Shown piece after piece: positions 9,001 to 58,900 of a stretch of 64,000 bases of DNA. The notes under the pieces are model-generated. The model was not told the DNA's origin, searched no databases, and was given only the letters and a program-made list of their open reading frames with translations. The position numbers and the translations under genes were made by a program. Source of the DNA: Sycon ciliatum (Eukaryota; Porifera; Calcarea; Leucosolenida; Sycettidae); assembly GCF_964019385.1 (NCBI RefSeq), contig NC_088643.1:74102965-74166964 (forward strand), given 5' to 3'. Within the stretch, counting starts at the first letter, position 1. Each line of letters opens with the position of its first letter.

Positions 9001-12000
9001 ATCGGATCAACACACTGGTCATGTCGTTTTGAAGTGCAGGACCTGTAAACATCTCATCGTTGATGGAGTGTCCATCCCAGCGGGCTGCACCGTCAAATAC
9101 TATTCTCACTTTTGACGTGGATTTATCTGAGCGTACTACCGGGAAATGGGGTAGGTACCACTGGTCGTTGCCGTCTTTGGCTATCTCATCCGGGTCCACG
9201 CGTCTCACGTAACCCTTGGCAATATGTTTCTGCATAACGTCAGAGTACTGCTGCTTCACGGCTGGCCGTGACTGTAGCGAGCGTTGTAGACTGCGGAGCC
9301 GCTGCTCAGCCTGAGCTCTGTTGGACCTGACACGTGGCTTACCGCTGTCATTGACCCATGGGATTCGGACAGTTACCCGGTTGCCGTTGCAGCTGATTGA
9401 TTGGCTCGTGAGCTCCTCGGCTCTTCTGTCATCGGGTGAAGGCGTCTCCTCTAGTGGGTTATCTGTGCCCGCCGACTCATCTCGCCAGAACTTCTCTACT
9501 AGCTCGGTCAGCCCATCAGTTAGCACTGTGTCAGTAGCTGGTGTAGTAGCTGTGATTGCACGAGTGGTGTCGACTCCTGTACCAATGCACACCCACCCGA
9601 GAGGAGTTCGTCGAGCAATGGGCGCTCTTGCTGTTTCTGCTCGCCGTTCTTCTAGAGTAGCATGAAGCTCGATGGCATTCAGGCCGATAAGCGCGTCGAT
9701 CTGACTGCCCTTGATGGATGGGAAGTCAATATCACTAAGATGCGGCCAGCTGCTCTTGTGCTGATTCCAGTTCACTGCCGGTAATGACACGGTGACGGTG
9801 GGCAGAACCCAAGCTTCAAGCTTGTTCATGGTCTTGTCGCCCAGAGCCGCCACTTGGATCTGTACATGCTCACGTCTTGCTGCGGTCTGCTTGCCGCCTA
9901 CTCCGGAAGTGACGAGCTGCCGCTTGGGTCCACGCACATTGAGGGCTGTTGCCACGGACTGCTGGACATAACTCGTGGACGATGCTGGGTCCAGGAGTGC
10001 ATTACCTTGGAGGCTCACACCATTGTGTCGGAATACAACAGGCACAACCATGAATGACTCGCCACTGTCAATCTCTGGCTGATGACTTGCGCAATGTGTT
10101 GTAGCAATCTTGGCAGGACCGCCACTGCTGGCCGAAGCTGCGTTGGCCTTGATTGCGGCATTTGATGGGTCTGCAGCGGAATCCGAGCGTCGGATGTTGT
10201 AGTGTAGCATGTCATGATGCGTGCGGCTGCACTTTGAACAGGGTTGCCTGGTACAAGTCTTTGCGCGATGATTGAGACCGAAGCATAGGGCGCAGACATC
10301 TGGCTTGGACTTGATGACTTTCCATCGGTCCCTGACCTCCATCTTAATGAAATCGGGGCAGCGGTGGAGCTGATGCGCCTTGCCACACGAGGGGCAGCTT
10401 CTGTCGGCACCTGCATCCTTGCTAGTTGCCACAAATGTTCGTTCAGACTTTGTAGCACTCTGCTTCGACCATGATCTTGCTGGTGCTGGTGCTGAGGCAG
10501 TGACTTCTGTCGACCGGAGTCGTTCATCGGCACGGCGTAGTGTGTTGACGCGTCTGAGGAGCCACTGTGTTAGCTGGTAAATATCACAGTCAGCATCGTC
10601 ATACTTCTCCATGTACCTAAGCAACAGCGATTTCGGCAACTTCTGCGTAACCGATAGGTACAACTCACGGCCCGGTGTTACTGCACACATCTCCATATTC
10701 ATGAGCATCGTCCGGAGTCTGAGGACAAACTTGGCAAAGTTGTCGTCTGACTCTTTTAGCTTCGGCCACTGCAAAATCTCCTTCTCTTGGCGCTCAACAG
10801 TGCGATTGTCGCCGCCATACCATGCATCTAGCTCCCTAAGGATGGTGTGGTAGGCTCCTGGACCGTCAAGCACGCCATCAACAAGGTCGCTGGCCGTGCC
10901 ATGCATGAGACACTCACGCAGTTGCGCAAGTTTGTACGCTTCAGTCGTTAGTGGATCTTCGTCAACAACGCGGCGAAAGTTCTGCTTCCACCGGTCGTAG
11001 TCACTAGTCTTGCCAGAGAACTTTGGTAGCTCCAGTGGCTTCACGTGAAAGCTGAAACTAGCAGGGTGTAGTGTCTGCAGTTGAGGTGGATAGGGCATGA
11101 AGGACTCTGCTTGCGGGTTTAGCACCTGCTTGGAGTGTTCTTGCACTGCCACTGGTGTTGGTTGCTGCTGTTTGGCCACTGCTGTATGCTTCTGTGGTGT
11201 ATGCCATGGTGGTGTTGCATTCAGCATTGATACTGCCTTCTTGTTACTGCCAGGCAGTCTTGATTGTACTGCTGCACTGCGTATTGCTGGCTGTACAGGC
11301 ACTGCATTACTAGCTGCCTGTATGGACACTGTAGTACGTCCTACAGCCACAGGCGCACCACTGGCCATTGACTTCTTGGCTGGCACTACTGACAGCACTG
11401 TACTGGTCACAGACTTTTGAGCGGGCGCGCGCATGAATGCTTGCGCCACTGGCCCCAGGGCAGGCACGCCAAACGCATTGACACTACATGTACTTGACTG
11501 AGCTGGGCTGTCTTCCGCCACACCTAATACAGCCTCAGGTTGTGTGGGCGCATTCACAGTACGAAACGTACCTTGCAAACTCCTTGGCTTGCCGGGGTCG
11601 CGTTGTCCGTTCACTCCACCGACATCACTCATCGTTCTGAAGTGCTCACGCGGTGGTAATACGAATTTTCGACCAGGTCCGGCCAACTTGTCGTGCTCAG
11701 CAAGACTCTTGGCAGTCAATATTGCCCTGCCACTGGATGCAGCGTTTCCAGTCTCTGATTTGCGAGACGACACTTTGCTCCCTGACCCGGATCGTAGTGC
11801 AGCTGCAGATTCAGCCTCGGCTCTTCGAACCTCCAGTTCCCTCTGCACCAAACTTGTCTCACGAGCCAACTTGCGTGTCTCGGCTTCCTCCTCCAGCTCA
11901 GCGATTTGCCTTGCAGCCTCAAGTTCTACACGAAGCATCTCTGCACGAAGTGACGCCTGCGACGCAGCAGTTCCTGAAACTTTCGAGGGCGCATGTCCTG

Positions 12001-12181
12001 CAGAGCTCACGCTGTCCGGGACGTCACTCCAGTTATCAAACCCGTATCTGCTCGGCGGTCTCCCTTTGGTAGACCGCGAGCTCCGTCTACACTCAGCGCC
12101 TGGGACTTGCTCGTCGTCGCGCAGGACTTCTTGGATCTGGCTCTGAGATCCGGCTCGAATAGGACCACTATGGCTACTCAT
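6074..12181 (-). CDS. BEL/Pao Gag-Pol polyprotein, intact frame (2035 aa)
   Basis: A single uninterrupted frame encoding all parts of a BEL/Pao retrotransposon. Approximate residues: charged coiled coil 78-125; DUF1759-type Gag region from about 385 (FSGKTSDYDRWKQNF); three Cys-His clusters at about 594 (CPSCGKAHQLHRC), 630 (CALCFGLNHRAKTC) and 650; aspartic protease region near 730 with LLDPASS, a departure from the usual D-S/T-G; reverse transcriptase with LVGDVSEMF (about 1068) and YVDD (about 1147); RNase H with FSDAS (about 1327), QLELRA and WTDS; integrase with an H/C zinc region near 1670, then VDYAGPF, SDNGTNF and FGGVFES giving the D, D, E triad; and a C-terminal DUF5641-like tail. 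The first ATG lies inside the last 11 bases of the 5' LTR, so the first four codons come from LTR sequence; a downstream ATG cannot be excluded. No stop or frameshift is visible. Confidence 0.93.
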   Translation of the reverse strand: MSSHSGPIRAGSQSQIQEVLRDDEQVPGAECRRSSRSTKGRPPSRYGFDNWSDVPDSVSSAGHAPSKVSGTAASQASLRAEMLRVELEAARQIAELEEEAETRKLARETSLVQRELEVRRAEAESAAALRSGSGSKVSSRKSETGNAASSGRAILTAKSLAEHDKLAGPGRKFVLPPREHFRTMSDVGGVNGQRDPGKPRSLQGTFRTVNAPTQPEAVLGVAEDSPAQSSTCSVNAFGVPALGPVAQAFMRAPAQKSVTSTVLSVVPAKKSMASGAPVAVGRTTVSIQAASNAVPVQPAIRSAAVQSRLPGSNKKAVSMLNATPPWHTPQKHTAVAKQQQPTPVAVQEHSKQVLNPQAESFMPYPPQLQTLHPASFSFHVKPLELPKFSGKTSDYDRWKQNFRRVVDEDPLTTEAYKLAQLRECLMHGTASDLVDGVLDGPGAYHTILRELDAWYGGDNRTVERQEKEILQWPKLKESDDNFAKFVLRLRTMLMNMEMCAVTPGRELYLSVTQKLPKSLLLRYMEKYDDADCDIYQLTQWLLRRVNTLRRADERLRSTEVTASAPAPARSWSKQSATKSERTFVATSKDAGADRSCPSCGKAHQLHRCPDFIKMEVRDRWKVIKSKPDVCALCFGLNHRAKTCTRQPCSKCSRTHHDMLHYNIRRSDSAADPSNAAIKANAASASSGGPAKIATTHCASHQPEIDSGESFMVVPVVFRHNGVSLQGNALLDPASSTSYVQQSVATALNVRGPKRQLVTSGVGGKQTAARREHVQIQVAALGDKTMNKLEAWVLPTVTVSLPAVNWNQHKSSWPHLSDIDFPSIKGSQIDALIGLNAIELHATLEERRAETARAPIARRTPLGWVCIGTGVDTTRAITATTPATDTVLTDGLTELVEKFWRDESAGTDNPLEETPSPDDRRAEELTSQSISCNGNRVTVRIPWVNDSGKPRVRSNRAQAEQRLRSLQRSLQSRPAVKQQYSDVMQKHIAKGYVRRVDPDEIAKDGNDQWYLPHFPVVRSDKSTSKVRIVFDGAARWDGHSINDEMFTGPALQNDMTSVLIRFSLEPVALVGDVSEMFLQVKLAERDQRYHRFLWYDDNGQVQVYQFTRVLFGAKASPYLAGRAVKEVIKHHGDEYDSDVVQCLSKDLYVDDMLSSLPSTQRAIQAREQTQQLLAKGGFHMRKWLSNKAEVMNTIPEEDRSPDVVRDVDSDTSLPTVKTLGVSWNAEKDAFTFQHQMKDITTFTRRSVLRGLASIFDPRGLISPYVITAKVLLQDAWLLGQGWDDLLPKEQVVKWRGWFQGLPDLSNLEISRCFKDPQQPSEDASLSVHCFSDASDRAIAAAVYVRASYPDGTTRITLAMSKAKPAPVRRQTIPQLELRAAVLGVRVSHLVAESIGIPVSAHTFWTDSMNVLGWVQSHSRRYKVDIGNRISELQTSTRAHQWRHVPGKNNPADKGTRGLSAALLCRDAVWWSGPQFLRQQPDEWPQMKEVSTSSLPGQLKTALVAVVPPPSEILGRFSTWSRLVRVTAWCKRFVANCRQAVSDSKSTKGDAASDSQSSTPVRVPVQFGGTRSISVPVLSTDEVSVAERHWIATAQKDCHGTAYHRLQSRQPMLKSDPLAPLCPQFDSATESPLMTVGGRLQATKNMPSGVRHPVILPAKHRVTQLIIEQEDHRCFHAVGPQHLLANLRQRYWIVHGTSTVKAVRSNCVTCRKNRAEPASQMMGQIPDFRVAGSLKPFSRTGVDYAGPFLTKQGRGKTQAKRYLCLFTCLETRACHLEVSYGLSTESFLLAFERFTKRRGVPLEMVSDNGTNFTAAERELREAVRAMDKEKIEKRLVSDGVRWRFNPPRAPHFGGVFESLIKTAKRGLKAVLGKADVTDEELVTAMCQVEDMMNSRPLTVVSADAADLQPLTPAHFLVGRLDPPMALEVKADEHPSRDPRKRWLYVQRLVADVWNRWRDEYVPLLNVRRKWQRQGRNVAVGDIMLCLTSNTPRGTWPMGRVTAVHPGADKLVRVVDIKIGDKIYRRSIHHLVPILDTE
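12150..12167 (-). promoter_or_regulatory. Candidate primer-binding site of the BEL/Pao element
   Basis: Three bases inside the 5' LTR the element strand reads TGGTCCTATTCGAGCCGG. It begins with the usual TGG and resembles the complement of a tRNA-Tyr 3' end (CCGGCTCGAAGGACCA) but carries two extra bases. The match is from memory and imperfect. Confidence 0.45.
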
Positions 12182-12630
12182 GCTGCCCTCTGTTGCCCCG
12201 GCATGCGTTCAACCAGATACAACAGCAACTCGTAACAGTATGAGACCAAGAACTTTCTCCTCTGAGATAAAACTGCAAGAACACAAACTGTAAACTGCTT
12301 CCTACAGTTCAAAACTGACAACTAAAAAACTTCAAAGGCATGGAAGTATACATTCTAGAATGACGAAAGCGAGAGCGCAATCGCAGCCCGCGAGTATCCA
12401 CAGGACTGTGCACAAATGCAAAGACGAGTGAATATATTACGACTAGATAGCATGGAGACAGCACATGCATCAAACGATACGCTACTTGAATCTCGACAAT
12501 GCAAAGGTTGAGACTGGCCTGCGGTCAATACATCAGGCGCCAGCAGCATGCACTAGAATAAAAGAAATGAAACCTGAGTACAATGAAAGGTCATGCAAGA
12601 TTCACCACAAGCTGGGAATATTCCAGAACA
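12171..12630 (-). repeat. 5' LTR of the BEL/Pao element
   Basis: A 460-bp LTR, one base shorter than its partner at 5391-5851. On the element strand it starts TGTTCTGG and ends GAGTAGCCA, and it contains the likely promoter and the first ATG of the polyprotein. Confidence 0.93.
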
Positions 12631-20235: not shown

Positions 20236-30891
<10,656 letters not shown>

Positions 30892-32405: not shown

Positions 32406-33548
32406 TCAAGCCAACGATTTCATCATTTCAATCAACCTGTCCACGGTGTTGACTGATTGAGTGTCTGACAAGATCTTATAGCAAAGTCTAAGAACGGCCA
32501 GGAGAGAAGCATCATTCGACAAGTCGGGAATAGGAGCAGCTCCAATCACACGACGGGTGGCCTCACACGCACCAAACCCGACAGCGTCTAACCAGAACTG
32601 CGAAATGGCATCCTCGGCAACTCCATCAGCAAAGAAGCGCGACCTGTAGGTGTCCCACACACGTCTTGTGGCTTCCTCCAGAGTTGCAAGGAGGCTACCG
32701 TCAACGTCTGGATTACAATGCTTGTGAGCCAACCAGGACACGCAGAATTGGATAGTATACATCCCAATCTCAAATGCCGCTGGACCAATGCATGCAAACT
32801 CGACGTCAAAGAGTCGCGCCTCGCTGCCGCACACCATGATGGAGCCACTGTGAAGGTCGCCGTGCAGCAAGCACTCACGGTTCTCCAAGAACTTGCGCGT
32901 CAGATCAGCGACATTGCGCTTCACGGCCGCACTGGAGCGCATCTCCTGCGACAGCGCTTTGACTACGTCCGGTGACTTGTTTGTCGGGTCCTCAGCATCG
33001 TACGGTCTCACAAACACGTACTGTCGCGTGATGTCCACCATATCGGCGTTGGAGAAGTTGTCGCACAAATCTTCCCAGTCACGGCTGCCAGTGGAGAGCT
33101 TGTGGCTCTTGGAATGGATGGCGGCTGCAAACTTGGCCACAGCGCAGGCAGCATCCACATTCACAATGCCTGAGATGATCTGAGAGCGCATCACTACATA
33201 CGATCCCAAGTCTTCCATGATCATGAGCGAGCGTTCTTGATCGAAGTAGTACGGCCGTGGACAAGATCCTGGCATGATCTCGTGAAAACGCTGTAGAGCA
33301 TGGTACTCTACCTGCAGTCGAGCCTGCGTTAGGGCGTATTTTGGACCCAAACATTTAATGTATGCAGGTGCCTGCTTCACCACCACACTGCACGGTCTCC
33401 CATCCAGTATCCACTTCGCTCTGTAGACAAAATTCAAATTGCCGTCGCCGATCTCCTGGATTTCTGCTCCATCACGAGTGAAGCCATTCAGCTGCTCCAC
33501 AGTTCCTGCTAAAGTAGCTAACGTGTCCAGCACAGCATTGGATTCCAT
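32406..33548 (-). CDS. Methylthioribose kinase, single exon (380 aa)
   Basis: 5-Methylthioribose kinase phosphorylates methylthioribose to its 1-phosphate in the methionine salvage pathway of plants and many bacteria. It belongs to the APH/choline kinase-like fold. Start chosen at 33548 (MESNAVLDTLATL), which gives the usual family length of about 400 aa; the frame stays open upstream to 34043 but that part is low-complexity and not family-like. Signatures: EIGDGNLNFVYRAKW (glycine-rich nucleotide loop, about residue 27), VVVKQAP with the ATP-binding Lys near 54, LMIMEDL, the catalytic loop HGDLHSGSIMV near 233, and DVEFACIGPAAFEIG near 249 (the D-x-E metal motif). No intron is needed, unlike every other complete host gene in the window. 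Animals normally use MTA phosphorylase instead and lack this enzyme. The start lies about 550 bp from that of DONSON on the other strand. Confidence 0.9.
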   Translation of the reverse strand: MESNAVLDTLATLAGTVEQLNGFTRDGAEIQEIGDGNLNFVYRAKWILDGRPCSVVVKQAPAYIKCLGPKYALTQARLQVEYHALQRFHEIMPGSCPRPYYFDQERSLMIMEDLGSYVVMRSQIISGIVNVDAACAVAKFAAAIHSKSHKLSTGSRDWEDLCDNFSNADMVDITRQYVFVRPYDAEDPTNKSPDVVKALSQEMRSSAAVKRNVADLTRKFLENRECLLHGDLHSGSIMVCGSEARLFDVEFACIGPAAFEIGMYTIQFCVSWLAHKHCNPDVDGSLLATLEEATRRVWDTYRSRFFADGVAEDAISQFWLDAVGFGACEATRRVIGAAPIPDLSNDASLLAVLRLCYKILSDTQSVNTVDRLIEMMKSLA

Positions 33549-34099
33549 TACTAACACCTCGAACCTCGAAGCAAAAGAACGGCAAGAACTGTCTGACAAA
33601 CTCTGGAAGGAGGGGCACAGAACGAATGCAGGTGAAACAAATGAACTGAAGTCATGACCATCTCTTTTGACTTCACTTTTCTTGTCTTGATCAAGCTGTC
33701 TCGCCTTGCACCTGTCTTGCATCTTGCAAGCTTGGCGGATGCACCACGTGGCGCATGGATCATGTGATGCGCATATATGCATCCACTTCGCGTGGCTGTG
33801 GCCGCGATGGCGCCGTGGTCTCCACGGAGATCGTGTTTTCCAGCTGCCGACTCGACTTGGCGCGAAATTTGACTGGGTTGACATGATGCACGAAATCAGC
33901 TGAGTCAGATCAGGGACTGGGAGCTCGAGCAGAGGGAGCTCCGGAGCTGAGTGAGGAGGCAGATCGTGTGCATGGAGTAGAGTTCGAGTTTGCCATATGG
34001 CTGAGTGACTTATTCTTCTCCTCTCCTTGCTTGAAGTCAACAAAGGAAAAGTCTAAAGAATTGGGTAGCTGTGTAATCTCACGTTTTGTCGCATCAAGT
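33549..34099. promoter_or_regulatory. Shared upstream region of methylthioribose kinase and DONSON
   Basis: A 551-bp interval between two divergent start codons, relatively CpG-rich at 33730-33880. Likely contains a bidirectional promoter; no specific TATA box or factor site was identified. Confidence 0.5.
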
Positions 34100-37091
34100 A
34101 TGGACGCGGAGTCGTTACTTTCGCCTCGTAATCCCCATCGTTCTGTCCACATTCGTAAAAAGCGAAAATCAACATCGTGTCAACCTCTCCAGCCGTCATC
34201 GAAGGAGAACATTCCCCCGTATCTTCACAATGCTGTGCAAAAGAAACGAAAGGTGCCTGATTCCGTAAGTCTAACTTTTCAGCTTGCACTGATAGTCTGA
34301 TTTGACGTCGTCTCAGATCATACTTCGGTTGTAAAGAATTACAGTATTTGAATGTTTCTGTTGCCTGTGACCACGTGTCTACTTTTGACTGAAGGCATTG
34401 TACACGTACGTAATGGTTGAGTTGTTCATAGCTCCTGGCTTGCTTTGGCAGTCGAATCCTGACACGAAGTAAAGCCCGTAAAAGTGATCCCCAACTGAGA
34501 TTGGAGGTTGAGTATTCTTCCCATTTTTGATATTCCTCCTCAACTACTCTGTACTGCACATACCGGTAACAACAAAGATTCATAACCCCTGGGGGTTGTG
34601 TGGGGTTATGTACTCTTGATAACAAATATCTGTTGTTCAGCATGCACAAGTACTTCGAAGTTGCAAGAGTACACGAATACGATTACTAAGCAAAGGTGCA
34701 TTGACTATACTGTTGGAAGTACCCAATGCTGTAGACAGCAAGCTGTTTCGGCCACATAGGCCTCATCATCAGTACAGCTACAAAGGAGGCACCACAGACA
34801 TTAACATAACTCGTTGCTCTAGCACCAGAGTGCTCTGACTACTGAAAGTAACGAGTGATGCGTAACGCAGCAGCTCTAGGGCAGCCTACCGAGAGTGCTC
34901 AACAAGACAAATGTTGAGGAGCGTAATACAAGATTGAAGAAGGATCTTGACAATTATACTAAATTTTGCTAGTGTCAGTAGTCGTCCGCAATTCATCCTA
35001 ATGTGTAAAAAAAAACATCTTTATGCGGTATGTGAAAACCCCAAGGCAAAGTTACGGGGTATACACGTGCTGGTGGATGAAATTCGACCACGTTGGTCAA
35101 GTGAGCGACGGGCGCTGTGCAGCCCTAGACCTGCGAACACTGGGACGTTCACTGGTGCAGGGTGCAAAGCTGACTCGCTTGATCGGATTGCATCCACCGG
35201 TACTGTAGTAACAATTTTTCACTTCATGTAACAACAATGTCTCCTGCCCCCTTGGCCTCCGTTGTGTGTTGCAGGGCCTGTCTGAAAGAAGCATTCTAGC
35301 ACGTTCACCACTGGACTCCATCACCAATGTAAGCGGACGTCTGTGTTAGGAAATCTGCTTGCCTGTATTTGCATTGGAAATGCTGACTATATTTGCTGGT
35401 CATGGGACATGCATGCACACCTGCTGGCCTGAACGACGAAATGGATGTTGTGCAGGTAGCTCTACGCCTGCTGTTGTGCTGCTTTTAGATCTTAGAAACA
35501 CCTGTTTCGTCTGGGAAAATGTGTACGGTTGTCATCGCAATGACATTGTGCGCACGGTCCATAGAAGTATACTTTTATGGAAGACATGCCAGAAGAATCA
35601 TCCACATTTGTAGCATTTGATGGTGACCATATTTCTGATACGGATGAAATGTGCTGTGCCTGGGCGCATGGTTTAGTGCATGTGGTCTTTTCACGTATTT
35701 GATGCAGCTGGCACATGGCCGGTTCCCATTGGTCACTGTACCGCGAAGTGTTGGATTTGAAATGGATACCGTGTACATGTACCAGGAAGACACCCCAGTG
35801 TGGTCCGAAGCAAATGGCCACAAGCCATTGCCAACTCTGAATGCACATACTTGAGGCGAGAGTTTGCAGCTAGCAATTATGGGTAGCTGTCACGATTCAT
35901 GTTCAGAGTGACGTCCTTTTTCCATGATTTTATCCGCTCGCTCTATGTATGCATTCATGACTCAAGGTCAACCGTGCGTAATGCTCTTTTATGCAAGTCA
36001 AGTGCTGTACATTATGAGAATGACGTAGCGCTGGCGGCGAAAGTTTATGTGTGGAGTTGCACGTCCTGGAAAGGTGTGTACTCGTGCTTCAAGTGACCAT
36101 TCCTGGTGCATCGCACATCTGCATGGACATTCTAAGTGATTTGTAGTGTGTAGTGGTATCTCTGTTTGTTTTTCTGTTCTATTTTAGGAGGCTCGCGTGC
36201 AGCCGGTTGCTGGTGTGTCACATGCAACCTTGCCGCAAGATTGGAGCCTTAAGAATAGTGTTCGCTTTACATCTACCAGCTCTTTTGCGTGGGCGGACAT
36301 GGTGAAGAGCGGACGGAGCAATGAAACTGCGGCCGGTCTCACAGATTTTGTTCGGCACTCTCACGCAGAGGAGACAGTGCCCGAAATCGTTTCCGTTGAC
36401 GAGGTAAGCTGGTTTCTAATGGTTGCCCAGGTTGCTTCCTTTTTGTCTACTCCTTTTTTTATCTGTTTCACCGAGTCAGTCATTTCTTGACTTAGCACCC
36501 GACCAGCTTGTCTGGTCAAGGCCAATGGAAACAATAGACCAATAGTTTTGGGCGAAACTGAAGAGGAAACGAGGCAGCAGAACATTGCCGTTTGTGGTAG
36601 TCTGCATGCACATCGTGGAGCCACTTCGCATGCAATGTACACACCATTTTGTGGACTCCCCCACCCCGCCCTCGCCAAACAAGACGATCTTTATGGGCTC
36701 GGTGTATTGCTTATGCGATTGTGATTTTAACTGCAGTTGTCTATGCCCCGATTGGATTAGTTTAACTGCATTTGTGTATGCCCCGATTGGATTAGTTTAA
36801 CTGCATTTGTGTATGCCCCGATTGGATTAGTTTAACTGCATTTGTGTATGCCCCGATTGGATTAGTTTTGTCCCTTTATGGCTTGTGTGTGCTTCAGGCG
36901 AGCTCCGACCTCCGTCGGACCATTCAACGGCACACGATGCTCTGGATGCACCCTTCGTTGCCTTGGCTACAGCTCTTTCCGCGCACCCTGCTTGACGGCA
37001 AGATTTCCGGCCAGGCTGCATCGCCGTTGTCTGTGTCGATGCTGCTACAACCGGTGATGCAGACAGCGCTGCAAGATGCCTGGTGAGACTA

Positions 37092-37151
<60 letters not shown>

Positions 37152-39455
37152 GAGAGAGAGAGGGTGGGGGGGGGGGGGGGGGGGGTGCATGTTGCAGGTC
37201 TTTTTATTGAAAAAATGGGTGGCTGGTAAGGGGAGATTGTACCGGGTAGATTTGTGTTGTCGCTTAGTTCTCGTTGACACGTACCGGTATGTGAAGCAGG
37301 GCTGTTTTTTGTTCTCTGTGCATCTACTCTAGGCTGGAAAGCTTTACATCAACGTATCAACTGCTTCGCAATGGTCACTCGCCCTACTTTTACGTCTGTG
37401 CTTCCCAAATGACTCTGCTGTTCCGCTCCAAGTCCGAGAAAGCAGCGGGCCCGCCGAAAGTCGAAATCCTGATCTCACCGACGACAAAAGGTTTCCGTGA
37501 TGCTCTGACTTCTGAGGGTACGTGATGTTCCTTTGATGACACCCCTGCTTGCACCGAAAGCAACCTAACTGACCAACGTACACAACCCATTCTTATTCAA
37601 TGTACAATCAACCTTGCGAGTATCGAGTCTTATCGACCCTTGAATGTGCATGAGAAAAGTGTTGTTATTCGCGAGTTGTTGTTATATAGTACCCGAAGTC
37701 ATTTTCACGAGATTGACTGCATCTTCTCTGTGACATACATGTGGTGGTGATTACTCTTTTGTGCCGGCATATTTGTCGCGTGGCCAGAGTGCCGGCGTGG
37801 GCAACATTCCTAAGTTCTTCACGTGGAGTACTTTGCTTGCGCAGCGTAGGCACATTGCTGATCATGTGTAAGAACTGTGTTTCATAGTCCGGATGTTCTG
37901 GCCTCTCGGTTGTGCCGGTTGTAGTATGCCGGTGCAAAGCGGCCCGGGGTTGTGTGTTACATTTGCATACCGGTACATGTATCAGCACAGTTTTCTTCAA
38001 TGACCTGGACAGGAATATGGACCATGTTTAGTAGTACCTACATGTGTGTTGCGAGTAGCAACATTCTCCTACTGCTCAGACGTATGAAACAAACTGGTTA
38101 CAGTGGGTCTTGGCATTGTGTGTAGAGCTGATTCAATTGAACATTGTGTCGTTGTAAATCTCATCATTTGTTCTCTGTGTTTATTCTTGTCATGTGTGGT
38201 GTTGCATCCTGTGCAGATGTTTGCTTTTCCATGCCCCTCCACTCTCAGCGAAGTGACCAGGACGCACCCGAGTCGCCAACCGGCTCGCCGAAGGAAAGCA
38301 AGTCTGAATGGCTTGAGAGCATTGGCCTGTCGGTGGACAACTTCCCGTCCTTGCAGGACCACCATGTGTTCATGTGAGTTGATCTAGCTGCTTCGCACCC
38401 TTGCTCTTAGTGTATGATGCGTACAGCACATGCAACTTGTCATTAGAATGACCACGTCATACTCGGGTATGTAGTTTCATGCCCAAGAAATCGTGCAGTG
38501 GGGTTTGTCAACGGCTTATCTTGATCTATTAAACCACTGTCAGTATCTACTGCTCAACGCTATAGCTTTGTTGCTACGTGACTAGTCAAACATATGCGTA
38601 GATCTGTGTAACGCTTGCCCCCTCAAGAAACCATTTCTGAATTTATTTTTGCAGTGAAACCTACAGTACACCAGTACGATGTTCAATGGGAACGGTCGGA
38701 CATGTGAAAAGAGAGCCCCTCTGGACCTGCCACTGATCTTCTGTTTTGTTGTGTACCTGTGTGATACCTATCCTTTCTGCAGACAAGAAGCAAGATCTCA
38801 CCGACACGACTTCCGTCCGGAGTCACTCATCCTCATCGAAGGCTCGTCAAGCCAAGCTTTCTTCAACTACGTCCTGTGTAACAGCGGTCAGCTTGTTGCT
38901 AGCACCGGCTCTCAAACTGGCTTGCCACCGACAATTCTTTGTCCGGTGGCGTTCTCCGGAGCAACACTACATCCGCTCAAGGTCAGTTCTTGTCCTTTCT
39001 CTGGTTTGGCAAGCTTGTGTCATGGGCTGGATCTACAATAGCATGGGTTTCCTTTGCCTGCAGAGCCTTTCAGTCCATTAGGAATGGATATGCGTGGCAT
39101 TGAGTGTGGTGTTCAGGTTAGCGTGTTTCGATTTGTTTACATGACGCTTTTTGTGTTTTCAATGCGATGGGTGTGTGTGTGTGTGTGTGTGCAGGTGGAA
39201 GTGTCGACACTGCGAGTAGCGGGTCGTGACGGCTCGTCCACGCACCACAGCCTGGAAGTGAGTGGCGCCGTGCTGCCTCATCACGTGCAGACACTGTGCG
39301 CATTGCTGCAAGCGTGCCAGGGCGATCTGCATCTGACGACCAACGTGCACGAGCCGACTGCCGCGTTCAACTCACTGCCAGATGGGCAGTCGGTCACCTT
39401 CCGGAAGGTCTCTGCTCGCGAGGGTGGTGACATGCCCTGGACCGTGATGCAGTGA
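34100..39455 (+). CDS. DONSON: DONSON (protein downstream neighbour of Son), nine exons
   Basis: Replisome factor needed for CMG helicase assembly and fork stability in animals. Exons: 34100-34264, 35275-35328, 36188-36403, 36898-37082, 37333-37517, 38217-38373, 38783-38981 (or 39003), 39064-39116 and 39195-39455. Exon 1 is basic with an IRKKRKST nuclear-localisation-like motif. Family landmarks: DWSLKNSVRFTSTSSFAWAD; LWMHPSLPWLQLFPR; SPYFYVCASQMTLLFR and LISPTTKGFRDAL; SEWLESIGL; RPESLILIEG; GLPPTILCPVAFSGATLHPLK; and near the end LEVSGAVLPHHVQTL with HEPTAAFN. Phase is consistent for exons 1-7 and 8-9. Joining 7 to 8 needs the weaker donor GTTTGG at 39004, because the strong donor GTCAGT at 38982 leaves the wrong phase. 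The C-terminus is shorter than in the human protein. Confidence 0.95.
36727..36867. repeat. 35-bp minisatellite, four copies, DONSON intron 3
   Basis: Four tandem copies of a 35-bp unit beginning TTTAACTGCATTTGTGTATG and ending CCCCGATTGGATTAG, ending about 30 bp before the exon 4 acceptor. Confidence 0.92.
37094..37185. repeat. (AC)n followed by (AG)n and a poly-G run
   Basis: Compound simple repeat in DONSON intron 4, starting about 10 bp after the exon 4 donor: AC run 37094-37148, AG about 37150-37162, then an uninterrupted G run to about 37185. Confidence 0.92.
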
Positions 39456-48182: not shown

Positions 48183-51100
48183 CTACAGTGGTCCCTCTAT
48201 AATCCGGCACCATTTGTGCCACGAAAATCTGCTGGATTAGGGAGGGTGCTGGATTAACAAATCTGATTTACTGCTGCAATGTGCATGAAGAGGACATTTT
48301 GGCTACTGAAAATTGTGCTGGTTTATCGAGGGTGCTGGATTATAAAGTGCCGGATTAGAGAGGGACGACTGTACTACTACTACTACTACTACTACTATTG
48401 ACAGCTGCCAGGATTGGCCACGCCGCTCCCAGATGGGAGGTACTGTCAGAGAGGTTAGGGGGGGAGGAAGGCAATGCTCTAAGTGGCGTTCCAGATCTTG
48501 CCGCCTCCGGAACCGTCGGTTGTGGCAAACTTGGCAGTGAAACTTGAATTGTTGGCGTTCAGCCACAGTAGGGCGCTTTGGACAGGTTCCACAACGGTGA
48601 CGCTTGAGACCCGCAGCCGATTTAAATGAACGCTGACAGTTGGTGCAAGTTACACCCGGAACAACAAGAGGAGCAGGGGCAGGGGCCGGCGGCTGGTCGA
48701 CATCGCCTAGTCGACACTTATGCACCGCAAAGCCTCCTCTGCTACGTAGCCATCAGTTGCATGTTGGACACTGTACTGATCCAGGCTGCTCCGATACCGG
48801 GAGCTGACGGATTGCTGAACACTTGTGCCGGGCCATGTCGGAACTACGGCGGAACAGACGGTGGCGGGTTGGGCACTCGATGCTCTTCGGGGCAGGTTCC
48901 TTGTCCTCACCTGCTGCTGTCACCACTCCACGCCACTCTCCACGATCGCTTGCCAACTCAAACCAGTTACGCACTCCAGCCACGGATAGGTCCGTGTGAA
49001 TGGTGTCCTTCCAGCGACGACGAGGTCCACCAGGGGCGTCACACACGGTACGACCACTACGACCATGGTCGTACCACTTTTCGTCCAGGATGGTCCACCC
49101 AATTCATCCAAAAAAGCGATAAAAAAATTCAAGGATCTTCGGACTTGTACAAAAGTCAAAACATCGTAACTACAACTAAAAGTCGCTCTAAAAGTCACGG
49201 CACGAAGCACGGCATTCCTGTACATGTGTACTACACTCTAGCAGTGTACTCGTACAGTGAGAAGATGGTCGCAGCACTCGCCCATATGTACAGATCGTAC
49301 ATGTCGGTGTGCTAAACAAGGCAGATCGCGCCTTGCTGGTAGGCCGGATGTGACCAGTGACATGTCACACCTCGTAGCACAACGCGAAGTGTTGCAAGAC
49401 TAGTCTAGAGTACATCCACTAGTACTAATCACATTATAGTACTTAGCACCTCACAGTCACACCACAACTGCGCACAAGGAGCACGCCGTAGATCTATGTA
49501 CACAGTTTGCGAAGCCAAATCGTTATAATGTTGTGATTGAGGCGGACTTACCGTCACACTTGGCTCCGTAGCTGCAGGGTAGTTTCAATGGCGGCGGAAT
49601 CCGCTGGACCAGAGATTGCGGATAAGCCCAATCAGCCCAGGGATTTCCAGTTTCCGAAGCGCAGCTATGGCGTAGCGACTGTTCTGTGGCGGTCCTTCCA
49701 GCCACAATGGTTTGATGTTTTTCCCTGGTTGCACTGGGACTCCGCAAGCGAGCGAGCGTTTTGCCACACTTGCGTCAGAGCGTCGAGGCGAGGCCTTATT
49801 TCCTCCAGAACCGTGGAGCAAGCCTTCGTGACAACAGGCTATCAGAATTGGAAGGAGGCAAGGCGCGTGATGTCGAAACATGCCGAGTCGCGCTGCCACA
49901 AGGAAGCGGTCGATCGCCTGCTGACAATCCCGGAAAATGTCGGCGATGTTGGTGAGCGCTTGGACTCCCAGTTTACTGCCCAGCGGAAGGAGAATCGTGC
50001 TTGTCTGCTGCAAGTGCTCCGATCCGTGCGCTTTCTCGCACGACAGGGACTCGCTTTGCGTGGAAGCTCCAGGTCGGGAGGTGGAGAGTGTGACGGTAAT
50101 TTTCTGCAGGTTCTGGCTCTACTGTCCGACAATGATGAGAGTCTTGTGCGCTGGCTGAACCGTCGGACTGACAAGTACACTAGTGCTGCCATTCAGAATG
50201 AAATACTTCAGGTAAGAATCAGACAAATGACTGCATGTTAATGATGTTATGCTATTGGATACATTCTTCAGAGCAATAATTGTGTTGCCAACTTCGATGT
50301 ATCAGACAAATGACTGCATGTTAATGATATGCTATTGGATATTATTATTCTTCAGACTCAGAGCAATAATTGTGTTTCCAACTTCGATGTACTTCGAAAA
50401 TAGCGAACAATAAATACTGTGGCATTTTCGTGATAGCAATGGCTTATCACTTATCAGCTATTGTTCCATTTCAGTGAATATATTGCAGCTGACTAATATT
50501 CACACAAACTTATTATTGTTGTATTGGCCTTTTGCTTGCCTCTCCTAGGTGATGGCCCATCGTTTGCTTCGTCAGTTGTCACTCCGGATTCGGAACGAGA
50601 TCTTTGCGATCATGGTTGATGAGACAACTGACTGCTCCACCGTGGAGCAATGTGTTGTAGTTGTCCGTTGGGTAGACGACAATCTCGAAGCCCAAGAGGA
50701 TTTCCTTGGATTTTATGCAATCCACACAGCCAACGCTTCAACTGTTGTCCAGGTAAATGCTGTCACTTGATGTTTAAAATCTTTTTGATAGAGCACTGTA
50801 TTGACAATGTACTGTGCAATAGTTACATTTCAGGGATTTGACTATTTTAATATGGTAGCAGTCAGTGTGAATGATTTTGCAATGTATTTGCACAGCGTGC
50901 CATTTACTTGCAGTCCCACAACATTGTTTTGATCTGGGTGTTTTGGTCTTGGTTTGTTCCTCATTGCACAGGTAATAAAAGACAGCATTATTCGCATGGG
51001 CATGTCACTCGCCAACTGCAGAGGCCAATGCTATGATGGTGCTGCAGTTATGAAGGGCACAAGGAATGGTGTGGCAAAACAGATCCAGGACGAGCAACCC

Positions 51101-54100
51101 AAAGCGATCTTCACGCATTGCTATGGACATTCGTTGAATCTGGCCTGCCAGGACATGGTGAGAGACGTGAAGGTGGTGAAGGATGCGCTAGACACTACCT
51201 TCGAGCTGAGCAAGCTACTCAAGTACTCGGCTAAGCGGACTGCTGAGTTTTCGAAGTTAAAAGAAGAGATAGCACCTGATGAGCCTGGTTTTCGAACCCT
51301 GTGCCCGACTCGTTGGACTGTCCGTGCAGCATCATTGCAGAGTGTCCTGGCAAACTATGAAGTAATCCAGGCCAGTCTTGAGAGATTTACGGAGTTGGCG
51401 AAGTACGACCACGAGATGTCAGCCAAGTGTAACGGAGTCGGCCATCAGCTAGCCACTTTCGAGTTTCTGTTTGGAACCTGCCTCGGTCACCTAGTTCTGC
51501 GTCTTGCTGACAACCTGAGTGTGGCGCTCCAACAGAAGTCACTCTCAGCAGCAGATGGGCAAAGGATGGCTTCGCAGACTGTAAAGGCGTTACAGAAGCT
51601 TCGATCCGAAGAGGAATTTCAGAAGTTCTGGGCCGATGTTCTCCTCAAACAGTCTGCTGTGGATGTCAGTGAGCCGCAGCTGCCACGTCGCCGCAAAACC
51701 CCTGCTCGCCTTCAGACGGGCACCTCCAGTCCTCACTTCCCAGCTACAGTAGAGGACCTCTATCGTCCGATGTTCTTTTCGGCACTGGACACCATCATAG
51801 CAGCTATCGGTGACCGGTTTGACCAGCCTGGCCTGCAGCATTACCAGAACCTAGAGCAACTTCTGCTGAAGGCTGCAGCTGGTTCTGCCTACAAGGACGA
51901 GAAGGAGCATGTTGCTAAGCTTTGGGGCGATGACATCAATATGTCATTGCTGGAGTCGCAGCTCGCTATCCTGGCGTCTTACTTCACCTCCAAGGAAGTG
52001 TCTCTTGCTCGTATCGCAGAGTACGTACAGGCCCTGCCCAACAAGCACTTCCTAAGTGAAGTTGTAGCCCTGCTTAGGCTAATTCTGGTTGCTCCTGCAA
52101 CCAATGCCACTAGCGAGAGATCTTTCTCTACCTTGCGCCGCTTGAAGACCTACCTACGGTCCACAATGAGCCAGGAGAGGTTGAATCACTGTGCCATCCT
52201 CACCACGATGAAAGAGGAGTGTGATGCCCTTGACCTGAAGGATATTGGCAATGACTTTGCCTCCTCCAACCAGCACCGCATTGATTTGTTTGGCAAATTT
52301 TAAATCTTGCGTCTGGCCAATGTTGATGCCGCTTAGAACTATTGTTCCGTATTTTTAATTATTTGTCGGATCAAGTGTCTTTGCTGATATTCTGAATTAA
52401 AGTTTCCCGTGTGATACATGTGCATATTGAGTGTAAGTGGGGTTGTCTAATAAGTGCTCGGGAAACCCTCGTTTGCGGCTGCAGAGCGCCAAAACGTGCC
52501 CTATTGCCCAAAAAATCCCAAATTTTTTTCCGGGGGACACCCCCGGACCCCCGGTCGTACCACTCCGAACTGCCCTGTGACGCCCCTGTCCACAGAATGG
52601 CCGAGACTGAGGGAGACAGGCAAACAGCAACTGCTTCGGTACTCTGGTGTCATCAAGACGAGCCAGGTGCCCAAGCCACTCCAACCGTCTCTGCTGCACC
52701 ATGCGTGACAATGGTGTGGGATCACCCCACTGTGCTCGCAGTTCCTGTGAAGAGATGCGCTGTTCCCACTGTCGGCCTCGCGATACGCCAAGGATGGAGC
52801 GAATGTTGGCATGGTGAAACCGGTCCATTCTATCTAAATCTGCCTTCAACGGCGTCCAGCATTCTGAACCATACAGAACCGTTGACAGTACGCAAACGAC
52901 ATACAAGTGACGCCTGGTAGGGAGGTTCAGGCTCCGGTCATGTAGGATGCGCCGAAGACCACCAAAGGCCCCTGCACCCTTTGCTAGACGGCTCCGAATG
53001 TCCGCTTGCGACCGCGAGTCTGGAGTGATGGTGGAACCAAGATAGGGGAATGAGGTGACTGCTTCAACCCTATCACTGCCAATGACCAAATCAGAGCAAT
53101 CAGAAGGGCAAACTCCGAAACCTGCAACGAGAAGCTTGGTCTTGGTCATGCTCACTGTGAGACCCAAGCTGGATGCGACCTCACAAAAGGCACACAGGGA
53201 TTGATCGGCTGCGTTGCGAGTTGTAGCGAGCAGTACAGCATCATCCGCAAACTCGAAGTCATCAGCATGGCCGGACTCGGAGTGGGGACGACGCCTAGTG
53301 ACACGAGGGAACAGCTGGCCATCAATTGTGAAGCTGAAGTCCACACCAGACTCTATTCCACGCTCCACGAGAAGGGATCGCCAACGCTCAATAAGTAAGC
53401 CGAAGTACAAGTTAAACAGTACAGGTGCCATCACGCACCCTTGGCGCAGCCCATTCTTGACAGATATCGGATCCGTGCAACCACCGGCAACGCGAACGCA
53501 AGCTGACATGTCTGTATGGAATGATTTGATGATGGCCACAGTCGGGGGCGGCACACCCAGCCGCAGCAATGCCTGCCAAAGAGCTTCGCGAGGGACAGAG
53601 TCGTACGCTTTGCGGAGATCCACAAATACGCAGAAGAGCTTCGATCGATGTTCGTACGACTTCTCGACAAGTTGACGGACAGAGAAGATGGCGTCTGCAC
53701 AACCACGGTGCCGCCGAAACCCGCATTGGAATTCAGGCAGTTCCGCCTCAGCAATACCTTGCAATCGGTTTTGCATGATCCGAGCAGCCAACTTGCCGAC
53801 AACCTCCAGCAATGCGATCCCTCGCCAATTATCGCAGCGAGAGAGGTCGCCCTTCTTTGGAATCGGTACCAGCAGTGCATCGCGCCAGTCCTGGGGCACG
53901 CAACCCCCCGACCAGACAGATTGGAGTAGGTCCAGGAGGAGTGGATGGAGGACAGGCACACCAACCTTCAGCAGCTCCGGCACAATCTGTGACATACCAC
54001 CAGCTTTGCCATTCTGTAGGTGTCTAATTGCCTGAGTCAGCTCATCCTCCGATGGTGGCAGTGAGAGGGAGTCCTCGACCTCACGCTGAGGGATAAGTTG

Positions 54101-55852
54101 GAAGACATGCGGATCGTACACACTGCAGACATTCAAGACACCCGAGAAATGCCCATGCCATGTGCCCTGCTGCTCCTGAACAGATTCGCAAAGAACTCCA
54201 TCGGCATTGCGGATGGATTGGACAGACAGGGGTTGCAAGCCCCCAAAGCAGCGTTGCATGTCGCGAATGGCAGACCAGACAGCTTTGCCACTGAAACGTC
54301 CACGGTGCACCACCGCCGCTTTGTCCATCAACCAAGTTGTTTTTGCCTTCCGGATACCAGTACGAGCCCGGCCACGCGCTTCTTTGAACGCCCGGTGATC
54401 AGAGTCCCTGCCGCTTCTCAGCCATTGGCTATACAGGGTATTACGAGACTCCAGTAGAGGCTCCAATACAAGGGTATTGTCACGGAACCAATCTGGCATC
54501 CGCCGCTTGTCCCGACCAACCACCTGCTCCGCCGCGTCAACGACAGCCGACTTCACGGTACTCCACTTACAGTCCACAGACGAGGCGCGGTCATACGTGG
54601 CTAAACGAGATTCAAGACTAGCACAGTACTCAGCACGTACAGTAGCCACACGCTCAGCCTCCTCTTCACTCATGAATGGCTTGAATTGGTGAACAGCAAA
54701 CTTCCACGGCCTGGAACGTGCATCATGATGGTACCGTTGCTGCACAACGTCAGGTAGCCGGTATTTCATGCGGACAAGACGGTGGTCTGTGCTACACTCT
54801 GCAGTGCGCATCACTTGACAGTCCATGCAACGTTTACGGTGTTGTTGGCGTACGAACACATAATCTATACAATGCCACTTCTGTGATCCAGGGTGTTGCC
54901 AGGTGTACATGTGAATGCGTTTCTTGGGAAACAGTGTGTTACATACTGTGAGCTGTTGACACGCCAAGAATGTGAGTAGTCGATGACCAGCATCGTTCAC
55001 ATCACCAACACCATGTGATCCATGCACTCCCTGCCACATCTCTAGTTGCTGTGGGCCAAAACCAACACGAGCGTTGAAATCCCCCAGGACGATGACGTCA
55101 TCAGCAGAGTTGACATCGCTGAGAGCAGACTGGAACTGAGCAAAGAACTCTTCCTTGTCAGCATGGGGGGATCGAAACGTAGGAGCGTAACATGAAATCA
55201 CTGACATCCACCCGTGCTCAAATCTCAACCTGGCCGTCACGATGCGTGACGAGACGGGTCTCCACTGGCAGCCTGCACGTTCAAATGCCTGCTTGGCCCT
55301 CCGACGCAGAACCAGCGCAACACCCTCGCCACGACGAAAATTTTCGTCAGGTACGGGGCGACCAGAGGCGAGTACAGTCGCATCGCCGATGTTGAAAGAG
55401 TCTCTCCCAAACCATTTGGTTTCCTGCAGGCCAGCCACTTCCACGTCAAACCTGGACAGCTCACGGATAACCAAGTCGATCTTTCTGTCCTCCACGACGG
55501 GCACAAAATTCAAATTTTCAAAATTCACTCGTCTCTTTGCCGTCTCGACCGGTCCGTCATTGTTGACCAGAGTGCGGACGTTCCAAGATCCAAAGGCCAA
55601 TGTTCGCAGCCTTCCTCTCCTCCGCCTTCCTGACAGTACTCTCTGAGCTTCGCAGTTTGAAACCATTCGGGGGTCAGCTACACCACCGCGAATGGAGAGA
55701 CGAGGACAACAACGATCGTGACAGAAAAGAAACTGCCCTGGCGACCGCGCCGCGGAACCCTCGCCCCAGGAAATTTAGGAACACGCCAGGGGCGACTCTG
55801 GTGAACCCAGAGCCACCCCGTGGCCTAAGACTAGTAAGAAGAACGACTGAAG

Positions 55853-55915
<63 letters not shown>

Positions 55916-55935
55916 ACGCACACACATGCACACAT

Positions 55936-55995
<60 letters not shown>

Positions 55996-58900
55996 AAATA
56001 GGTGATGGCCTTGGCTTTCTGTGGGTAGTTGGGAGCAATGCTATTGTGCCTTGCACGTATCCTTCATCTTTCTGTGAGAATCGGACCTCTGGGACTGTGA
56101 GAAGGCAACAATGCCTGTGCAATTGGTGAAGTAAAATAGAAGCGAACAACAACATATTCCCAACCCTGATGTGCTCTCATCTGCTGTCGTGTTTGTAACT
56201 TGTGTTTGTAGATTCGGCTAACTACTCACCTGTATCAGCGTATCAAACAGGTACACGACTGGGCCACTGCAGACGAGGTTAGTTTAACCAGGCACACCAT
56301 ATCCTGTTGATTTGATAGAGAGCTCTCAACACAGGCATGTGGTGTTTGTGTGGCCAACGGCCATAGCCAGACATTTCAATAAAAAGACTGCATCAGTACG
56401 GTTTGTATCTGCTGCACCTGCAGTACAGACTTGTGTCTTGCGGAGTCGCGCTCGATTAGCTCAATATTGCTACCTGGGGTGCCAATGTTGAACTGCTCAA
56501 CTATGACCACGTCCACGTCCGAACAACTACATCTAGGGTGGTTTAGAGAGGCAGGACAGGTGCTTGTCAACATGCAGTTTTTAATCGCAGTCATGGCCGG
56601 ATCTGGCTTGCACGTGTGTGTGTGGGTATGTGTGGGGGTGGGTGTGTGTGTTTTTTGTTGTTGTTTTTTTTATTACAAAGCACTGGCCAGCAACATAAAA
56701 GGGGAGGTAGACAAAATTGGACAAGCGAACATTGACAACACAGAGGAGCCTAGCATGCGTGCCGATGAGGTAGGTCAACCTCCCCCGACCTAGTGGTCTC
56801 GGGTTCATCAGTTGGCCTACGCATCAGGAAGGGGAAATGGACAGAGAAAGGGAGAATGAGGATGAGGAGCTTTCCAGGAGAGGAAGAGCGAGAGAGTGAG
56901 TGAGTGAGAGAGAGAGAGTCTGAGAGAGAGAGAGAGAGAGAAACAGAAAATCATAATAATAGAGACAACCGGTTATTCTCAGTGCTGGTTGACGTCAGTG
57001 GCCCATAGCCAATTGGTCTGGCGGAGGTGATGGTAGGCCTTGGTCTTGAATGTCGGCAATTTCTTGAGAGTTGGGCGATCGGCGAGGATTGGGGCAGGCA
57101 GTGTGTTCCAGCTCTCCCGGACAAAGTATGGGAAGGAGCGGCGGATGAACTCTGGACTGGAGGCTGGCAGAGGAGTTGTGAGTTGAAAAGAGTGGCCACC
57201 GAGGGACTGGTGTTGCCGGCGCGTCCAACGACACGGGCAATTTTCCATTATTGGGGCTGGACTCCATTTGCAAAACACAGGCGAAACAGTCTAGCCAGCG
57301 GATATGCTAGTTCAGCTGCACACTCCTTGAGTACTCGTCCTGGGATCTCATCTGGACCAGTGGATTTTGATGTCAGGCACCGTTGGACTTCGGAGACGCG
57401 GAAGCGGATGCGCTGCAGGCTCGGAGTGGTAGTGTGGGGTGTTGCTGGTAACTCAGCATTGTCGATGTCATTGTCCCCAAGGCTACATTTTTCAGCAAAG
57501 AATCTAGCAAGGCACTCGCTCTTGGCTTTCAATGTACAGTACTGTGCCCGTGCCCGTCAGCATCAGTGAGTGTTGGCACGTCTGTAGTCCTACCCAGGAC
57601 GGCGCGGCGCGCTTGACATTCCTCCACTAGTCCTTGTCTCTCATGGAACCACGTGTGAGACGCTCTCGGACTGTCTGCTCTTCAGCTTGTTGTCCACGAT
57701 GTTGGGTTATAATAGATTGAGTGACAGCTGTCATGAACGACTGCTTCAGGCATTCACTGGGCCCCTGGTGACGCCAGGCCTTCCACGCTTTCTCTTTGGC
57801 ACGTTGAGCCTCAGTGCATTCTGGTGTCCACCGGCTCGGATCGGACGGCCTTGTTTCCAGCTTCTTGTGGGGAATAAACTGCAGCATCCCGGACACGATG
57901 TGCCTAGTAACAAGGCTGCATGCTTCCTCTAGGTCCTCCGGAAACTCAGCTGTCCAGGCAATGCGATGGTAGTGGGCACGCAGTCTGTTCCAGTCGGCAT
58001 GGCCATATCGCCACGCACGCCTCCGTGTGCTGGGCTCATTTTCTAGCGAGGCTTGAGCGAGCTCAGCGTGGACAACACAATGGTCTGACCTTCCTATCGG
58101 CGGCGAGATACCGGTGGTCACAGTACCAGTGAAGTCAGAGAGCACTAAGTCCAGGGTGTTGAGACCTCGGGTTGGTTCTTGGACATGCTGCGTGAGGCTG
58201 TGGGCAGCGCTTAGTTCCTCCATGTACTCCCCTGCACGGGTGGTCTTAGAGCTGCCGAGCCAAGTCGTGTTGTGGACATTGAAGTCTCCAACCAGCACGG
58301 TGTGGGTACCGTGTTTTCTGACGTTATCCAGGATGCCATCGAGGTGCTCAAGTGTTGAGATATCAGTGCCTGAGGCGGATCCAGGCCTGTACACAGCACC
58401 CAGCACTATCTTACCATGATGGGCAGACTGCACTGTGAGCCAGGTTACTTCGTGAAGAGATGAGTCGTACTGATCTAGATGATGGTACGCCAATGGGCTG
58501 CGTATCCAGATTGCTATGCCACCACCATGTTCAGTCCTGTCACGCCGGAGTGGGCCGGAGTACCCTGGGATGGCTGACTCGTGAAGGGAGAACTTCTCTG
58601 ACGTGATCTTGGTTTCAGTATTAACAGCGATATCAGCTTTGGAGGATACAAGCGCATGTTGAAACTCTCCAAATTTGGACATGATTCCACCAGCACTTGT
58701 ATCTGGGCTGCTGCTTTTGTTGCTACCTGCGCTTTGCAGTGGATTGGGTAGGGATGGGGCTGTGTCTGGCTTGTCAGTTGGTGGGCAGCCAGGCTGAGCT
58801 GACCCTGGTGCCGTCTTGTGAGTGCCGGATGTGTGGAAGGTCCACCTCCTGCAGTAAAGTGGCCTTGGCCAGAAGTTGGCAGCCAGCAGGATATGCAGGG

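Follow-up and report, generated by a model that had tools for sequence, protein, structure and literature searches.

A methylthioribose kinase-family gene with a Poribacteria-type sugar pocket on the chromosome of an early-branching animal

Methylthioribose (MTR) kinases are described from plants and bacteria, and animal methionine salvage is described as using MTAP only (PMC2194712). According to the same source, an extended IDXEF motif holds for most MTR kinases, and the 5-methylthio group is capped in the solved structures by three residues, which are W74, L180 and L345 in B. subtilis (PMC2194712). MTR itself is excreted by E. coli (PMC6302742, PMC6079011). No animal MTR kinase was found among the titles and abstract openings of a literature collection that leaves out most subscription journals, and within the same coverage no joint mention of "methylthioribose kinase" and "Amphimedon" was found. 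Here we describe an animal locus that encodes a protein of this family. With a probability of about 0.55, we read it as a gene that entered the nuclear genome of an early-branching animal, probably a sponge, in the distant past from a bacterium carrying the Poribacteria-type MTR kinase subfamily and has since adapted to the host.

The window, by which we mean the whole 64,000-nucleotide stretch analysed (G000:C1:74102965-74166964), is located on contig C1 (97,973,678 bases), at 74.1 Mb, in an assembly of 538 Mb and 313 contigs. The kinase gene occupies positions 32406..33548 of the minus strand as a single uninterrupted frame, running from ATG to stop and encoding 380 amino acids with no internal stop. 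This is the exact frame in which an earlier note on this DNA had recognized MTR kinase motifs, and all three motifs quoted there are present. The presumed start codon (33546..33548, minus strand), chosen by reading the sequence, has G at both -3 and +4 and gives the protein an N-terminus that is, in the alignment, about as long as those of the Poribacteria relatives. Upstream of it, the same frame stays open for 168 further codons (33549-34052, minus strand), nearly to the presumed DONSON start, which could be an N-terminal extension or chance. The protein matches the NCBIfam MTR kinase model TIGR01767 over residues 7-374 (E 5.3e-73, 246.4 bits). Since this score is below the NCBI curated cut-off of 275, we claim an MTR kinase-family protein and not a settled MTR kinase function. 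In the PDB, it matches the MTR kinases 2olc (E 4.3e-43) and 2pyw (E 1e-36), which we take to be the B. subtilis and Arabidopsis enzymes respectively. At E up to 1, TIGR01767 has no other match anywhere in the 538 Mb of the genome.

Fourteen catalytic and ligand positions were tested in the kinase (G-loop, Lys, Glu, HGD, DXE-F and RR) and all of them are conserved. The GXGNXN G-loop reads GDGNLN (residues 34-39), the HGD catalytic loop is formed by H229, G230 and D231, the Mg-binding DXE with its Phe corresponds to D248-V-E250-F251, and the twin Arg of the MTR site is R332 R333. The extended IDXEF motif reads FDVEF, an I to F change also found in at least three other rows, and the semi-conserved Trp of the W-loop is Y71, the same residue as in 34/34 Poribacteria sequences compared. 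The cap positions of the kinase are Y71, Y177 and A337, a combination that we name here the Y-Y-A subfamily. Y-Y-A is present in the one Latescibacterota sequence compared and in all 34 Poribacteria rows, which comprise the 30 best-scoring of 60 genomes over cut-off and four sequences from a pattern scan, 26 further matches lying outside the comparison. It occurs in 0/81 other rows, a biased sample made of 75 other best matches of the pattern scan, four plasmid genes and two PDB fragments, in which the plant row is gapped at the third position. In addition, 18 residues of the host protein are typical of the Poribacteria/Latescibacterota group vs 6 typical of the rest, the two counts being made with unequal thresholds. 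From the sequences, Y-Y-A marks a kinase subfamily. Because the 14 positions that serve ATP, Mg and ribose are unchanged and the cap residues altered, ribose recognition appears to be kept and the pocket for the 5-position to differ. Other pocket sets (YFI, FFI and WFI) were noticed in MTR kinases of Campylobacterota and Granulosicoccus and hint at further substrate variants.

The remodelled pocket suggests another possibility, somewhat unlikely in our judgement, namely that the protein is a kinase of the same fold whose substrate is a different one, for example 5-deoxyribose or some other 5-modified ribose. None of the three cap residues agrees with the classical enzymes, FDVEF stands in place of the usual IDXEF and the score is below the family cut-off; furthermore, an MTR kinase relative is reported to work on 5-deoxyribose and MTR about equally well (PMC6079011), and the structural relative PsiK is described as having a different substrate (PMC11808438). 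However, the ribose-holding catalytic Asp, the DXE-F and the twin Arg are all kept, and PsiK is described without the twin Arg (PMC11808438). Moreover, the bacterial relatives that share the pocket exceed the cut-off for MTR kinase, and mtnA was found in 5/5 genomes tested from such relatives.

The bacterial side was explored by a pattern scan of an 84,980-species collection, which gave at least 541 relatives. The best 80 of these were used and include four Poribacteria and one Latescibacterota, four of these five being ranked at the top. Similarity alone is not enough to pick out Poribacteria: the kinase is 32-36% identical to the Poribacteria/Latescibacterota relatives but also 33% identical to the B. 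subtilis fragment, and in phmmer the best Bacillota score (181 bits) lies within the range of Poribacteria (177-220). Each of three trees (43, 23 and 50 rows) has a long branch, and the kinase is placed together with Poribacteria and Latescibacterota on one side of it with a support of 100/99; its own end branch measures 3.2-4.2, and the program gave warnings for the 43- and 50-row trees, where long branches meet and the host letter composition is odd. AU tests on clades that were chosen after a tree had been inspected rejected the grouping of the host kinase with the plant one, a single Arabidopsis fragment being the only eukaryotic MTR kinase compared (p 0.048 with the 23-row tree and p 0.00067 with the quick tree). 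Hence a plant-type origin of the kinase was rejected. The grouping with Poribacteria was neither rejected nor favoured by tests of this kind (p 0.437 and 0.224), and in the 50-row tree the kinase stands beside, not inside, the sampled Poribacteria.

The gene is widespread in Poribacteria: 60/84 genomes are over the cut-off, and 61/84 have a match with E up to 0.001. By comparison, 1/64 genomes passes the cut-off in the phylum to which the Latescibacterota genome belongs, where the 36/64 found at E up to 0.001 are mostly weak matches with two strong partial ones. Within the Poribacteria loci tested, asd lies upstream of mtnK in 4/4 and dnaJ downstream in 3/3; the two frames that flank the Latescibacterota gene gave no family match. 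Other possible carriers were also considered. A viral carrier was rejected, the scan of viral contigs having given two pattern matches, neither of them a relative. Plasmids gave 102 matching records, all below 60% identity, and the four examined carry the W-L-L pocket. No relative was among the 13 matches that genome contigs gave in a single-sequence scan, although the alignment-based scan did find relatives. Taken together, the Y-Y-A pocket and the trees support the bacterial acquisition proposed in the earlier note, of Poribacteria/Latescibacterota type and not plant type. The event must be placed far back, because identity is just 32-36%.

We consider it unlikely, on these data, that the gene descends instead from an ancient MTR kinase of eukaryotes (holozoans) that most animals have lost and some early ones retained, with Y-Y-A being ancestral or spread among unsampled eukaryotes; in that case Poribacteria might share the pocket via an older transfer, in either direction. 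MTR kinases do occur in plants, Tetrahymena and some algae and stramenopiles (PMC2759508), and both the very long host branch and its position beside the sampled Poribacteria would suit such a history. The rejection of the host and plant grouping argues against it, as do the confinement of Y-Y-A to the Poribacteria/Latescibacterota group among the rows compared (none of the 81 others) and the presence of the gene in most Poribacteria genomes (60/84), its neighbours being conserved across the tested loci.

Acquisition from a bacterium of the Poribacteria-type subfamily does not draw much support from gene structure. The intronless state, which had been taken as a sign of bacterial origin, turned out to be weak evidence here, because other genes of the host genome also occupy single uninterrupted frames. 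Two adjacent and very similar choline/ethanolamine kinase-like genes (G000:C1:17298682-17305460) are each contained in one frame (364 and 377 codons); one of the two was checked, the first, and it is confirmed by PDB homology. Rel-homology (NF-kB-like) matches were observed at G000:C1:13849750-13875451, C5:13409921-13410532 and C5:35531202-35531825, two of them within 26 kb, and 4/4 cover the 169-position domain from position 1 or 3 to its end, in frames that are 535-1099 codons long. These single frames would be unusual if Rel-homology genes of animals typically contain introns. Unlike the single-frame genes, MTAP, PNP and MRI1 match in pieces.

On one side of the kinase gene lies DONSON. An exon of this gene was identified on the plus strand at 38781..38990, where residues 42-111 of the frame 38658-39038 matched PDB 8q6o (E 1.8e-13). 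Its presumed first exon (34100..34264, plus strand), followed by GTAAG, was placed by sequence reading, without a homology match. Kinase and DONSON thus stand head to head with 551 bases separating their presumed starts, and the interval between the presumed start codons (33549..34099) could act as a two-way promoter. A promoter shared by the two genes is possible, the indication here being geometry only; the region 33549-34101 has a GC content of 0.50 and a CpG o/e of 0.81, vs 0.75 for the window. The earlier note had placed the kinase between two eukaryotic genes, which holds for the DONSON side; on the other side (25.9-32.4 kb) the nearest identified feature is a retroelement at 21605-25873. 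Ten large frames of the window were scanned with Pfam cut-offs, and mobile-element domains were detected in five (one BEL/Pao type, one gypsy-like, one hAT and two LINE-type), a weak match in one and none in four. The minus-strand regions 6077-12208 and 21605-25873 carry BEL/Pao-type and gypsy-like retroelement domains in long uninterrupted frames, and the region 49537-59675 holds the two LINE-type frames together with pieces of a hAT-like transposase. At the scale of the assembly, COX1 gave no match, so that there was no sign of a mitochondrial contig or of a bacterial one carrying COX1. An exact Hox-type motif (a pattern used without a positive control) was found 0 times in the genome, and a silicatein-like motif gave no match. 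Together with the four Rel-homology matches, the lack of Hox-type motifs suggests an animal outside Bilateria and probably not a ctenophore, a sponge being the most likely host.

It is very improbable that the gene is a recently dead copy without function: none of six polyadenylation hexamers looked for occurs in the 1.4 kb downstream, as might be expected of one, but 380 stop-free codons and all tested catalytic residues are intact despite great divergence, which implies long purifying selection. Codon usage of the kinase correlates at 0.85 with eight host coding pieces, vs 0.55, 0.31 and 0.33 with three Poribacteria relatives and 0.74 with the Latescibacterota one; this is a weak test, because the host pieces themselves correlate at 0.86 with the Latescibacterota gene. 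Bacterial contamination or misassembly is the least credible explanation: although the near relatives come from bacteria alone, the collection searched being bacterial, the gene lies inside a 98-Mb contig near a DONSON exon and eukaryotic-type mobile elements, its codon usage fits the host, and its identity to any bacterium found is 32-36% at best, not the high value of a recent symbiont gene or contaminant, the chromosomal place and the low identity being the main grounds.

The host genome was searched for enzymes of methionine salvage. PF01048 gave four matches, two MTAP and two PNP. The best PDB match of MTAP was the MTA phosphorylase 1cb0 (E 1.1e-41 over 88 residues), presumably the human enzyme. 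The isomerase MRI1 was found as three pieces that jointly span positions 3-334 of 335, none of them over the cut-off alone; in one piece the match is interrupted by a stop, as expected from intron read-through. The check for MTAP suggested beforehand was therefore positive, and MRI1 came in addition. The gene had also been said to imply either an MTA nucleosidase or an external source of MTR. No nucleosidase is found among the four PF01048 matches in the genome, where a gene divided among short exons could escape, and the external source is the better option: lacking such an enzyme, the host would have to obtain free MTR from outside. We infer the donor, the direction of transfer, and the substrate and expression of the kinase. 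With ATP and Mg, the enzyme would transfer phosphate to O1 of its sugar, either free MTR or a related 5-modified ribose. In the case of MTR, the product would be MTR-1-phosphate, the same compound as the product of the host MTAP, which MRI1 would then isomerise into methionine salvage. The free MTR would be supplied by excreting microbes, either food or symbionts. Most likely, then, the kinase feeds imported MTR excreted by microbes, or a related 5-modified ribose, into host salvage. For an animal with MTAP, an MTR kinase would open another way into this pathway, one that pays only where free MTR is available externally, and the kinase may let the host recycle a sulphur sugar that microbes discard. 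Poribacteria are known sponge symbionts, which fits this reading. We tentatively propose that a sponge took a kinase with a remodelled pocket from a sponge-dwelling bacterial phylum and, alongside its own MTAP and MRI1, uses it to capture the sulphur sugar of symbionts or food bacteria. If true, this would be a gene transfer that couples the methionine economies of animal and symbiont.

Among described systems, a precedent for prokaryotic genes in a sponge genome is provided by Amphimedon (PMC4784904), in a paper whose main text does not contain the term "methylthio". The 5-deoxyribose kinase DrdK is described as an MTR kinase relative that accepts 5-modified riboses (PMC6079011), and the host kinase may be likened to it by this description only. 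PsiK of psilocybin fungi is also eukaryotic, with an MTR kinase-like structure and a DXE motif, but it is described without the twin Arg (PMC11808438), which the host kinase keeps. The B. subtilis (2olc) and Arabidopsis (2pyw) MTR kinases share with the host protein the G-loop, Lys, Glu, HGD and DXE-F. The twin Arg is common to the host and B. subtilis enzymes, the Arabidopsis fragment ending before this site. Their pockets differ, being W-L-L in B. subtilis, W and V at the two positions covered in Arabidopsis and Y-Y-A in the host. Among the enzymes sampled, the closest likeness is to MtnK of Poribacteria and Latescibacterota. The host kinase is unlike these enzymes in its identity of 32-36%, its score below the cut-off, its FDVEF motif and its place on an animal chromosome; it resembles them in the motifs of the fold, the Y-Y-A pocket and the 18 typical residues, and all three trees put it with them on one side of the long branch.
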